Shown here piece by piece: positions 4,994 to 21,898 of a stretch of 64,000 nucleotides of DNA (position 1 is the stretch's first letter; each line of letters begins with the position of its first letter). Source of the DNA: Nitrosomonadales bacterium. GTDB taxonomy: Bacteria > Pseudomonadota > Gammaproteobacteria > Burkholderiales > Gallionellaceae. A model generated the notes under the pieces. The model saw only the letters and a list, made by a program, of their open reading frames with translations, made no database searches and was not told the origin of the DNA. The DNA is taken from the NCBI GenBank assembly GCA_016214695.1, contig JACRNY010000004.1, positions 124,001 to 188,000 of the forward strand, in the 5' to 3' direction. Made by a program: the position numbers and the translations under genes.

Positions 4994-5716
4994 ATGCAAG
5001 TAACCATGCGTCAAATGCTGGAAGCGGGTGTCCATTTCGGTCACCAGACCCGTTTCTGGAATCCCAAGATGGCCCCGTATATCTTCGGTCATCGCAACAA
5101 AATTCATATCGTCAACCTGGAAAAAACCGTCGTGATGTTCAACGACGCGCTGAAGGAAGTGCGCAAGATTTCCGCGAAGAAGGGCTCCATCCTGTTCGTG
5201 GCGACCAAACGCCAGGCGCGCGAGATCATCCGCGAAGAAGCGATCCGCGCCGGTTCTCCCTTCGTTGACCATCGCTGGTTGGGCGGCATGCTGACCAACT
5301 TCAAGACCGTGCAGACATCCATCAAGCGCCTGAAAGAGCTGGAAGCGATGATCGCAGACGGCAGCATCGAGAAGGTCTCCAAGAAAGAAGGTCTGGTATT
5401 GCGCCGCGAACTGGAGAAGCTGGAGCGCAGCCTGGGCGGTATCAAGGACATGCAAGGTCTGCCTTCTGCCATCTTCGTGATCGACGTCGGCTACCAGAAG
5501 GGTACCGTCACCGAAGCGCAGAAGCTGGGTATCCCGGTCATCGGCGTGGTCGATACCAACCACAGCCCGCTCGGTGTTGACTATGTCATCCCCGGCAACG
5601 ACGACTCCAGCCAGGCGATCCGCCTGTACGCACGCGGTGTGGCCGATGCGATCCTGGAAGGTCGCGAGCAGGCACTGAACGAGCTGACTGAACAAGTCGC
5701 GGACAAAGCTGCATAA
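4994..5716 (+). CDS. rpsB: 30S ribosomal protein S2
   Basis: 240 residues. The start at 4994 gives the family opening [20 protein letters not shown] and has GGAG eight bases upstream; the frame is open to 4817 but the extension is leader sequence. S2 binds late in 30S assembly, together with S1. The gene heads the rpsB-tsf unit, separated from tsf by an intrinsic terminator, so S2 should be made in excess of read-through products. Length and motifs ([29 protein letters not shown]) are normal. Confidence 0.98.
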
Positions 5717-20444: not shown

Positions 20445-20580
20445 TAAGCGTTAGAGGCTTTCTTGTGGCTCCGGCCGTTCGCGTTGCGAGCTTAACATTC
20501 GCTGCGCTTATGTTAGCCTGCGCCGCAAACGCGCAAATTTTTCTAGTGGCGTTCCTTCGTCATTGCTGATGCGGCTTCTC
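20445..20580 (-). repeat. smpB 3'-end-like repeat, distal copy, with hairpin
   Basis: Reading the minus strand, right after the orphan gene stop, 20580-20543 encodes REAASAMTKERH plus a stop, close to the native SmpB ending [12 protein letters not shown]. It is followed by the same kind of spacer as at the native gene, including an imperfect hairpin (GCTTAACAT / ATGTTAGCC, 20490-20517) and a GCGCCGCAA box. At 20484-20461 the frame GRSHKKAS resembles the GRSHKRAT start of the next copy, so a further partial unit begins there. Confidence 0.6.
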
Positions 20581-20584
20581 GGAA

Positions 20585-21172
20585 TCAATTGATTGTTATG
20601 GTGGATGCGGCAGTGCCATGGTTAAAAGCAGTCTTCACTTGGGCTATTCGCAGTTCTGCTTCCTCTTTCGTAAGTACTTTTTGCTCAGCGAGCCATCTTA
20701 TCTTGCTGATTTCCCGTTCAATGCCATTTTCAATGTTGATATCACCATACCAGGAAAGTAACTGGTTTTTTCTTCGTGAATAGATTTCATTGATGATTTG
20801 GTTATGAGCCTTTCCATCTTGAATTATGAAGATGTTCCCTTGGTCAGTGCTGAAGACTGTGTAGGTTACTTTCGTCAAATAGGCAAACATGACGCAGAGT
20901 AGCCCAACGACTAACCAGAATCCCGTTCCTTTAAGCGTGTGCCCTCCATACAAAGCATAACCAATTTGAAAAATACTTAAAGCACACCACAAGTAGCCGA
21001 CATTTCTTAGCCACTCATTTTGCTCAATTTGTATCGATGATTTGAATGGAATTTCGCCATAAGAAATATCTACGTCGCCAGCCCCGGTTTTGTTTTTGTA
21101 TGCGAAGTTGAGATTCTCGGCGTCAAACGTAAAAGTATGCCGGTTGGAAAGTTTCTTCTGCTCAATTTTCAT
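20585..21172 (-). CDS. Orphan two-helix membrane protein with SHOCT-like C-terminus
   Basis: 195 residues. The N-terminal soluble part is followed by two membrane helices (about 60-77 and 85-103), a soluble region, and a C-terminal segment WLAEQKVLTKEEAELRIAQV like short C-terminal (SHOCT) oligomerisation domains. Base composition is visibly AT-richer than all neighbours, suggesting acquisition. It is bracketed by copies of the smpB 3' end and hairpins. No function can be assigned. The ATG has GGAATTTGGAATGA-type upstream sequence, a weak ribosome site. Confidence 0.6.
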   Translation of the reverse strand: MKIEQKKLSNRHTFTFDAENLNFAYKNKTGAGDVDISYGEIPFKSSIQIEQNEWLRNVGYLWCALSIFQIGYALYGGHTLKGTGFWLVVGLLCVMFAYLTKVTYTVFSTDQGNIFIIQDGKAHNQIINEIYSRRKNQLLSWYGDINIENGIEREISKIRWLAEQKVLTKEEAELRIAQVKTAFNHGTAASTITIN

Positions 21173-21249
21173 TCCAAATTCCTTAGAAAAAAATTAAATT
21201 GACCGCGGACATAAACATCCAATGAAATTGGCCCTACTGCCGCACGTTG

Positions 21250-21284
21250 CGGGCTTAATATTCGCTTCGGGAATATTAAGCCCG
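21250..21284. repeat. Perfect 14-bp hairpin between orphan gene and second smpB tail copy
   Basis: CGGGCTTAATATTC (21250-21263), 7-base loop, GAATATTAAGCCCG (21271-21284), flanked by GCCGCA boxes. It occupies the same position relative to the tail copy as hairpins near 21400-21425 and 20490-20517, so it belongs to the repeated unit. It could act as a terminator, though no T-run follows. Confidence 0.7.
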
Positions 21285-21307
21285 TGCCGCAAGCGCGCAA
21301 AATTTTC

Positions 21308-21388
21308 CTAGCGGCGTTCCTTCTTCATCGCCTGCGCCGCCTCGCGTATCGACTCCCGTTCTTTCTCGGTAGCCCTTTTGTGGCTTCG
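21308..21388 (-). repeat. smpB 3'-end-like repeat, proximal duplicate
   Basis: The minus strand encodes SHKRATEKERESIREAAQ then AMKKERR and a TAG stop, with no start codon of its own. It aligns residue for residue with the native SmpB end ([23 protein letters not shown]). It lies 60 bases downstream of the smpB stop. Nothing in between codes for a protein; it is a displaced or duplicated gene end. Confidence 0.75.
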
Positions 21389-21436
21389 GCCGCCCTTCGG
21401 GCTTAACCTGCTACGCAGGTTAGCCTGCGCCGCAAG
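21382..21436. repeat. Hairpin-rich spacer after smpB
   Basis: Contains GGCTTCGGCC, a GCCC-TTC-GGGC hairpin (21392-21402) and GGCTTAACCTGC (21400-21411) pairing with GCAGGTTAGCC (21415-21425) with one bulged T, then GCGCCGCAA. The same elements recur after the two other tail copies. Probably the transcript end of smpB. Confidence 0.55.
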
Positions 21437-21448
21437 AGAGCCACGCAA

Positions 21449-21898
21449 TTAGCGCCGCTCCTTTTTCATGGCCATTGCAGCTTCGCGCTTCGAATCCTTT
21501 TCGCGTTCAGTGGCTCTCTTGTCATGTTCCTTCTTGCCCTTCGCCAGCCCGATCTCCAGCTTCACCCGTCCGCCCTTGTAGTGCATGTCCAGCGGCATGA
21601 TGGTGTAGCCGGCGCGTTGCACCTTGCCGATGAGTTTGTCGATCTCGTGCTTGTGCAGCAGCAGCTTGCGGGTGCGCACGGGGTCGGGGTGGATGTGGGT
21701 GGAGGCGTTCTGCAGCGGGCTGATGTGGGAGCCGAACAGGTACAGCGCGCCGTCCTTGACGGTCACATAGGCTTCCTTGAGCTGTACACGGCCGTCGCGG
21801 ATGGCTTTGACTTCCCAGCCTTCCAGCATGAGACCGGCTTCATGTTTTTCCTCGATGAAGTACTCGTGATACGCCTTTTTGTTCTGGATGATGCTCAT
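21449..21898 (-). CDS. smpB: SsrA-binding protein SmpB
   Basis: 149 residues from the ATG at 21898 ([17 protein letters not shown]); the frame is open to 21997 but that part overlaps the ratA start region. Conserved blocks [34 protein letters not shown] and [15 protein letters not shown] are intact. SmpB brings tmRNA to stalled ribosomes. The C-terminal tail, which enters the mRNA channel, reads [18 protein letters not shown] and lacks the usual aromatic DW motif. The same 3' end is repeated downstream. ssrA is not in the window. Confidence 0.95.

Follow-up and report, generated by a model that had tools for sequence, protein, structure and literature searches.

The 3' end of smpB in a Nitrosomonadales bacterium of the Gallionellaceae has received inserted units more than once, with the gene being restored each time. 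The locus lies in a stretch of 64,000 nucleotides (hereinafter the window; assembly GCA_016214695.1, contig JACRNY010000004.1, positions 124,001 to 188,000), and we lean towards the reading that copies of a mobile DNA hairpin have piled up there. This hairpin is dispersed, lacks an enzyme of its own, is common in Betaproteobacteria and would have its left end set by base-pairing. The initial annotation of this DNA had already suggested both the repeated insertion, which is borne out by a comparison of the tails and modules described below, and the replacement of the SmpB tail by a different version, which is upheld by a tree of the smpB body along with displaced tails matching those of other lineages. 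If this is true, a unit of ~140 bp without its own enzyme would allow the terminal parts of core proteins to be exchanged between lineages, among them the SmpB tail, which acts within the ribosome. Further, such units account for tail duplications and hairpin spacers found after many conserved genes.

The anatomy of the locus (Table 1) is most transparent in its first unit. The tail portion of smpB opens with CAAGAGAGCCAC immediately 3' of CATGA, the left flank of the unit, and the start of this tail forms a perfect 12-bp inverted repeat (arms A and A') with the sequence just 5' of the first module. This module is 52 nt long, its last letters being CCA at 21381, the right end of the unit, and a second SmpB tail (CAAAAGGGCTAC...CGCCGCTAG, 21380-21308) starts at the very next base. 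The repeated smpB tails with their own stops and the trace of a fourth start, as reported in the initial annotation, were re-extracted and are confirmed. The third ending reported there is present, yet its front is missing, with an orphan gene occupying the place where that front would be expected. Likewise, the spacer had been described as an inverted repeat: the hairpin does exist, but the spacer is a dispersed module with three matches in the window to R1, a model built from 19 copies, and not merely an inverted repeat. An Rfam scan of the window returned nothing above the gathering score except four tRNAs; on five loci, with E-values up to 5, it returned one tRNA above the gathering score and six matches below it.

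Table 1. Features of the smpB locus in window coordinates
Feature	Position	Strand	Basis or remark
smpB	21449-21898	minus	Pfam PF01668 (SmpB), E 2e-57
Last 73 nt of smpB, read as the element-borne tail	21449-21521	minus	Tail type and tree
Complete inserted unit 1, 141 bp	21381-21521	minus	Arm A, tail, stop, arm A', module
Arm A, CAAGAGAGCCAC	21510-21521	minus	Left end of the unit, within the SmpB coding sequence
Arm A', GTGGCTCTCTTG	21433-21444	minus	Reverse complement of A, abuts module 1
Module 1, three-way-junction repeat, CGGCGCAGGCTAAC...GGCCGAAGCCA	21381-21432	minus	R1 80.1 bits
Displaced tail 2, type N, KRATEKERESIREAAQAMKKERR, own stop	21308-21380	minus	Tail comparison
Module 2, degenerate	21227-21293	minus	R1 17.5 bits, E 0.033
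Orphan gene, 195 aa	20585-21172	minus	Low G+C
Tail 3 remnant (REAASAMTKERH, stop), without front	20543-20581	minus	Re-extracted sequence
Module 3	20466-20525	minus	R1 68.0 bits
Trace of fourth tail start (CAAGAAAGCCTCTAACG), directly 3' of module 3	~20449-20465 (end approximate)	minus	

The spacer after smpB is a dispersed module that folds as a three-way junction and shows strong covariation. When 96 bases of the first spacer were used as a query, matches were found in 29 of 61 genomes, mostly at places other than smpB, and the module as a whole measures ~52-60 nt. In the genus, where R1 scoring covered the top 150 candidates of each genome, all 34 genomes have matches at E <=0.001 (2-17 each); 31 of these genomes exceed 40 bits, and the best match in the remaining three (G002, G008 and G032; under ~40 bits) is of a strength that may be due to chance. 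Across the order, with stricter filters and the best 26 candidates per genome scored, 57 of 200 sampled genomes, spanning 27 of 50 families, have a match at E 1e-7. A pattern scan of genome contigs recovered at least 119 stretches, with Betaproteobacteria making up the majority of the 80 titles inspected, and 13 stretches from viral contigs match the module; BLAST of the module against plasmid and phage collections gave no match in either. For covariation we used 101 module matches from 80 loci and 18 base pairs, in an alignment that was fitted to R1 and hence leans towards it. Standard pairing occupies 94.5% of the cells as against 83.6% upon shuffling, and cells with changes on both sides number 177 as against a shuffled mean of 54, such double changes being seen in 13 of the 18 pairs. 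The covariation score of 0.284 compares with 0.102 for shuffled alignments, and controls with slid partners destroy the signal (at most 0.045).

The extent of the inserted unit was delineated by two tests on the module loci. The first used 255 module instances, which include near-copies and are thus not independent: a perfect inverted match of at least 6 nt, adjoining the module and reaching a partner at most 250 nt upstream, is present in 137 of them, as against 279 of 5078 control pairings in which a module was combined with another locus. For matches of at least 9 nt the counts are 90 of 255 versus 12 of 5078. Of the 137 instances, 114 have GA and 15 have CA as the dinucleotide immediately left of the matched arm. 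The second test sought homology across the module, which was detected (score >=20) in 100 of 250 instances versus 32 of 1245 in a control whose count is probably inflated by different loci sharing a gene. In 58 of the 100 this homology begins with the base directly 3' of the module, and the boundary of the left copy, as projected from the duplicated end, is GA in 60 and CA in 17; when only the 59 distinct cases with a homology start within 6 nt are considered, GA or CA stands at the left boundary in 55. The agreement of the inverted-arm and duplicated-end tests thus places the left end of the unit directly 3' of (G/C)A and its right end at the CCA with which the module stops, a definition in which we have moderate confidence. 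Further, A' is closer to its own A than to the displaced A in 27 cases versus 8 (24 ties; p 2e-4), which is in line with a left end defined by pairing.

As read from their contexts, units are ~65-85 nt long when the first hairpin is minimal and ~100-150 nt long when they carry a gene end. They also occur in tandem (L051, L191 and L201), and in G056 five near-identical units follow each other at a spacing of 144-145 bp, with similar near-identical tandems at L009 and L293. Such arrays, together with the stop codons enclosed by the A:A' pairing, would also be expected if there were no present mobility, i.e., if the module were an old structured 3' untranslated region or terminator-like element and the extra tails had arisen in place by slippage and unequal crossing-over. 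We consider this account unlikely: the module lies at unrelated genes, at a 5' end in opposite orientation (L035), in tRNA loops and within another repeat, and tails of different lineages stand side by side. As to other arrangements, modules are densely packed head-to-tail, ~12 nt apart, in L171, L176, L183, L216 and L243 (metagenome-assembled genome R1_Bin_25). At L052-L055 (G056), and also at L173, L197, L230 and L236, the module is caught within another dispersed repeat, the one in G056 having inverted ends, GGAAACGCTGAA...TTCAGCGTTTCC. In the viral contigs L157-L161 and L164-L166, plus L220, the module is near the 5' end of a phage gene, with the gene start (MAYF...) on both sides.

In many units, the sequence between the arms is a copy of the terminal part of the gene carrying the insertion, with the displaced original end lying 3' of the module. 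Among the matches listed, whose gene-end contexts we read, thirteen target genes were identified by family models, namely smpB, dksA, recR, dnaJ, typA, ribonucleotide reductase alpha, argF, pstB, transketolase, folE2, ftsW, glmS and accB; this naming used the last part of the proteins, and several scores are below the cut-offs for whole proteins. The displaced end at glmS is plain in L128 and decayed in L034. An aldolase identity for one target was ruled out, the family model pointing to transketolase instead. From their peptides, we take proB, metK, nuoD, galU and norD to be further targets; a search with family models gave no match for the norD-like piece. At galU (L035), the unit lies at the 5' end of the gene in opposite orientation and still supplies the end of the gene. 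The targets extend to recombinase genes: at L171 (positions 1-420) a Xer-like recombinase gene has its end duplicated across two modules, and at L241 (~5200-5460) a module lies within a broken IntI-like gene. There are also insertions into tRNA loops without a copy of a gene end (L174, L199, L200 and L218). By eye, these four loci and also L043, L059, L060 and L088 appear to be insertions in the anticodon, T or D loops of tRNA copies that lie beside a further tRNA copy.

These gene ends bring to mind genomic islands at tRNA and tmRNA genes (Islander, PMC4383910). Such islands are placed by tyrosine integrases, similarly restore the end of the target and leave a displaced fragment downstream. 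The initial annotation had viewed the locus as what is left after integration of this kind. A dedicated tyrosine recombinase putting islands at the 3' end of smpB, each bringing a new tail, an integrase and cargo that have mostly been lost since, would explain the exact restoration of the gene end along with its displaced counterpart, as well as the unrelated orphan genes in the smpB-msrA gaps of several relatives. We nevertheless regard this explanation as very unlikely. The units are ~140 bp in length, with just a short spacer between the stop and A'; one and the same module is common to the thirteen identified genes; and the attachment sequences vary from gene to gene, whereas the module remains constant. 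As for the recombinase, which the initial annotation proposed to look for nearby, of 196 module loci (1.17 Mb in all), 7 gave a match to queries with IntI and a Xer-like protein: five have a neighboring Xer-like gene (L138, L172, L201, L213 and L244), and the other two are the aforementioned L171 and L241. With these queries, to which the search of the 196 loci was confined, no recombinase gene was found within a unit. Likewise, in 12 genomes, just 1 of 59 listed module matches has a PF00589 gene no more than 10 kb away (in G023, at the site of L138).

In the genus, the consequences of these insertions can be followed at smpB itself. The 30 smpB genes have two types of tail after the KRAT motif: type E (EREKD) in 13, and type N, comprising the rest (mostly EKERE or EKEKE), in 17. 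On a tree of the smpB body (369 nt, with the tail excluded), in which support is weak for many inner branches (11 of 27 open), the tail type changes 8 times (bootstrap range 7-8), with 3 changes being forced by well-supported branches. Shuffled tail labels give a mean of 10.1 changes, i.e., the label is little clustered on the tree, and a tree forcing type E into a single clade is rejected (p 6e-7). Of the 13 type-E genomes, 7 have a module match (E below 1e-3) after smpB, versus none of the 17 type-N genomes (Fisher p 8e-4). The comparison of the copies with the smpB phylogeny, another check proposed with the initial annotation, found displaced tails to be nearer to other lineages than to the first tail of their own gene, which reveals the direction of the exchange. 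The displaced tail in the window is identical in 62 of 72 bases to the native tails of L017 and L027, as against 50 of 72 to its own first tail. That of L003 matches the native tail of another lineage in 66 of 72 bases, and that of L015 matches its sister L019 in 65 of 72, both as against 50 of 72 for their own first tails, while the broken displaced tail of L014 favors another lineage by 44 to 36. The figure for L005 was excluded, since its displaced tail is one base short, which shifts the base-by-base comparison. Thus, SmpB tails have been exchanged between lineages by the units, or through later recombination of such units. The alternative that had been named as refuting this, a single smpB duplicate that has decayed, does not hold in the window, where the two copies with an intact front share one starting codon directly 3' of a module. 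Moreover, in the window, L003, L014 and L015 the displaced tails have their best matches in other lineages, with L006 and L009 as exceptions.

The search for extra smpB tails downstream of smpB, also put forward in the initial annotation, was successful: a protein search of the 61 genomes recovered them in 5 other genomes, although at E <=0.001 it did not list the window's own second tail. Beyond the genus, the coordinates of module and smpB were compared across the order, and genomes with a module just after smpB were picked among the matches listed. These five genomes, from five other families, all (5 of 5) have a second tail right after the module, starting at the same SmpB codon. Given the extra tails in 5 of the 61 genomes and the same layout in all five of these genomes, the layout at smpB is more than a matter of chance. 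One of the five, G174, has two modules and three tails, its first unit having a perfect A:A' match over 11 nt by eye; the two smpB tails of G209 are nearly identical, and the module of G146 ends in CTA. In two cases smpB reads through its usual stop and ends a few codons on, as RRSLR in L010 (G012) and as RRALR in the last tail of L009 (G018).

Several observations weigh against a mobile hairpin with a pairing-defined left end, or narrow its reach. A perfect adjacent inverted repeat of 6 nt is missing from 118 of the 255 instances, and 150 of 250 have no duplicated end at the threshold used. In the window itself, the second unit does not have the expected A' match, and the third, having lost its front, offers no A:A' comparison; by eye, the A:A' match is also imperfect or poor in the other four smpB cases from outside the genus. 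At L171 the order of the copies is reversed, and the module is oriented opposite to the gene. The insertions in tRNA loops (L174, L199, L200 and L218) match their target only in a few A residues; hence, pairing cannot be the sole rule for the choice of target. Six of the 13 type-E genomes have no module match after smpB, and ordinary recombination may therefore have spread part of the tails. Finally, the incoming and displaced tails are alike in L006 and L009, which implies that local copying also occurs and that some units look like local duplications.

With these reservations, we advance the following mechanism for the mobile hairpin, in which our confidence is low. The unit might exist as a folded single strand or circle, which an enzyme acting in trans would cut on the 3' side of (G/C)A and of CCA. 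In this form, A would pair with A' and the module would constitute the other arm, such that both cut points meet at the base. The left end would then be set by this pairing and not by a fixed sequence. If A' were to pair with a coding sequence, the unit would take the gene end along, and a unit carrying a gene end could later insert harmlessly at the corresponding position of a further copy of the gene. Thereafter, the number of units would shift by recombination or slippage between the repeated tails. The fullest version of this idea, wherein A' serves as a guide setting both the left end and the preferred target of a mobile hairpin that captures host gene ends, homes to the same gene elsewhere and shuffles the tails of core proteins across a bacterial class, is a tentative and rather doubtful extension. 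Were it true that pairing sets the end of the unit as well as its target, this would amount to an insertion system that can be retargeted naturally. The A:A' pairing may also be maintained for a reason acting at the level of the mRNA.

Which enzyme might act in trans was approached through gene content and neighborhoods. No recurring enzyme was recognized beside the modules among clusters of open reading frames (ORFs) present in at least 3 of 132 loci, a weak test in which only the beginning of one representative was considered per cluster and frames were chosen by length and often wrong. One proposal is that a recombinase with another job, IntI or the host XerC/XerD, moves the module as a folded, attC-like site. 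The logic of attC is the same, with neighboring DNA completing the outer arm of a folded stem, and integron cassettes resemble the units in that the right-hand site is folded, with its outer stem completed by their own left end. IntI is also present in 42 of the 57 module genomes of the order versus 44 of the 143 others (p 4e-8), and PF00589 proteins occur in all 12 genus genomes examined, two high-scoring ones of which we take to be XerC and XerD. However, the IntI link vanishes within families (observed 42, expected 42.1, permutation p 0.62; Mantel-Haenszel odds ratio 0.99; within-genus p 0.36), leading us to reject IntI as the mobilizer, and the ubiquity of Xer proteins makes their co-occurrence uninformative. 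A resident integron attC as the source of the module was likewise rejected: the 11 IntI stretches searched contain no module (best R1 score only 16.6 bits), and the array in the genome of the window shows a different repeat by eye. The boundaries differ too, lying after (G/C)A and after CCA as opposed to between G and TT in attC. Taken together, we find mobilization by IntI or Xer quite unlikely. The integron in question is chromosomal (G000 contig C4, ~117500-147000; L144 and L145) and lies beside flagellar hook genes, presumably flgK and flgL. It comprises an IntI gene plus small single genes in an array; the integrase is also found in some of the sampled relatives.

A second proposal is that a Y1 (HUH) transposase, acting on single-stranded DNA, moves the unit as a miniature derived from IS200/IS605-type or REP-type elements. 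The hairpins at both ends, the insertion on the 3' side of a short motif with no target duplication being evident, the insertions in tRNA loops and the Y1 genes in 38 of the 57 module genomes would all fit this. Like IS200/IS605 miniatures, REPINs and PATEs, the units are small, structured and non-autonomous, with a short motif at one flank; in contrast, such miniatures are not known to carry copies of gene ends, and Y1 was not found in many carriers. Y1 transposases occur in only 20 of the 34 genus genomes, even though module matches are seen in all 34; the within-family association is weak (p 0.16); and no module is near the Y1 gene inside L144. Y1 was set aside as the mobilizer on the strength of its distribution, although carriers may have lost such an enzyme or it may act in trans, and we view this proposal as rather unlikely.

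Among previously described repeats, the closest parallel is the beta-proteobacterial repeat element (BRE), a G+C-rich repeat of ~75-91 bp from several Betaproteobacteria (Hot et al. 2011, PMC3110155). BRE copies are described there as single or often in tandem, and mostly intergenic or overlapping the ends of ORFs; their number is said to vary between strains, and mobility is suspected. The module similarly has dispersed and tandem copies in Betaproteobacteria, whereas the repeat section of that paper includes no gene-end copy, insertion boundary, secondary structure or target-gene rule. Going by the descriptions, the module may be BRE. A literature search by the name BRE found Hot et al. 2011 alone, and one on smpB as an integration site and on small elements at gene ends found nothing closer than BRE. 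The module family can now be given exact boundaries and a list of target genes, with a behavior at gene ends that we did not find described in our literature search. The units differ from the tRNA/tmRNA islands in having no integrase found within them, in their length of ~140 bp and in sharing one module across many targets, and from integron cassettes in their boundary letters, the lack of modules in the integron stretches searched and the missing within-family link to IntI.

The orphan gene between the tails was perceived as foreign in the initial annotation; it has 41.0% G+C against 60.0% for the window, with only 1 of 635 sliding windows of 588 nt being lower. It has no family match in Pfam, NCBIfam or PHROG and, among 300 genomes of the order (four of this genus), is found in its own genome only. 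Two weak relatives were recovered, a 30% identical ORF on two IncC plasmids, and on the annotated plasmid this ORF lies 3' of an RHS-repeat gene with small hypothetical genes in between. This context at most hints that the orphan gene codes for an immunity-like protein. The gene is no more than putative cargo of the element, and among the smpB-msrA gaps of relatives we saw no cargo bounded by A and a module. The smpB-msrA gap is a hot spot, as indicated by unrelated small genes in several relatives. Different small orphan genes are found in this gap, depending on the species, in L062, L064-L066, L068 and L070, with that of L064 containing a pair that we take to be HicA/HicB-like.

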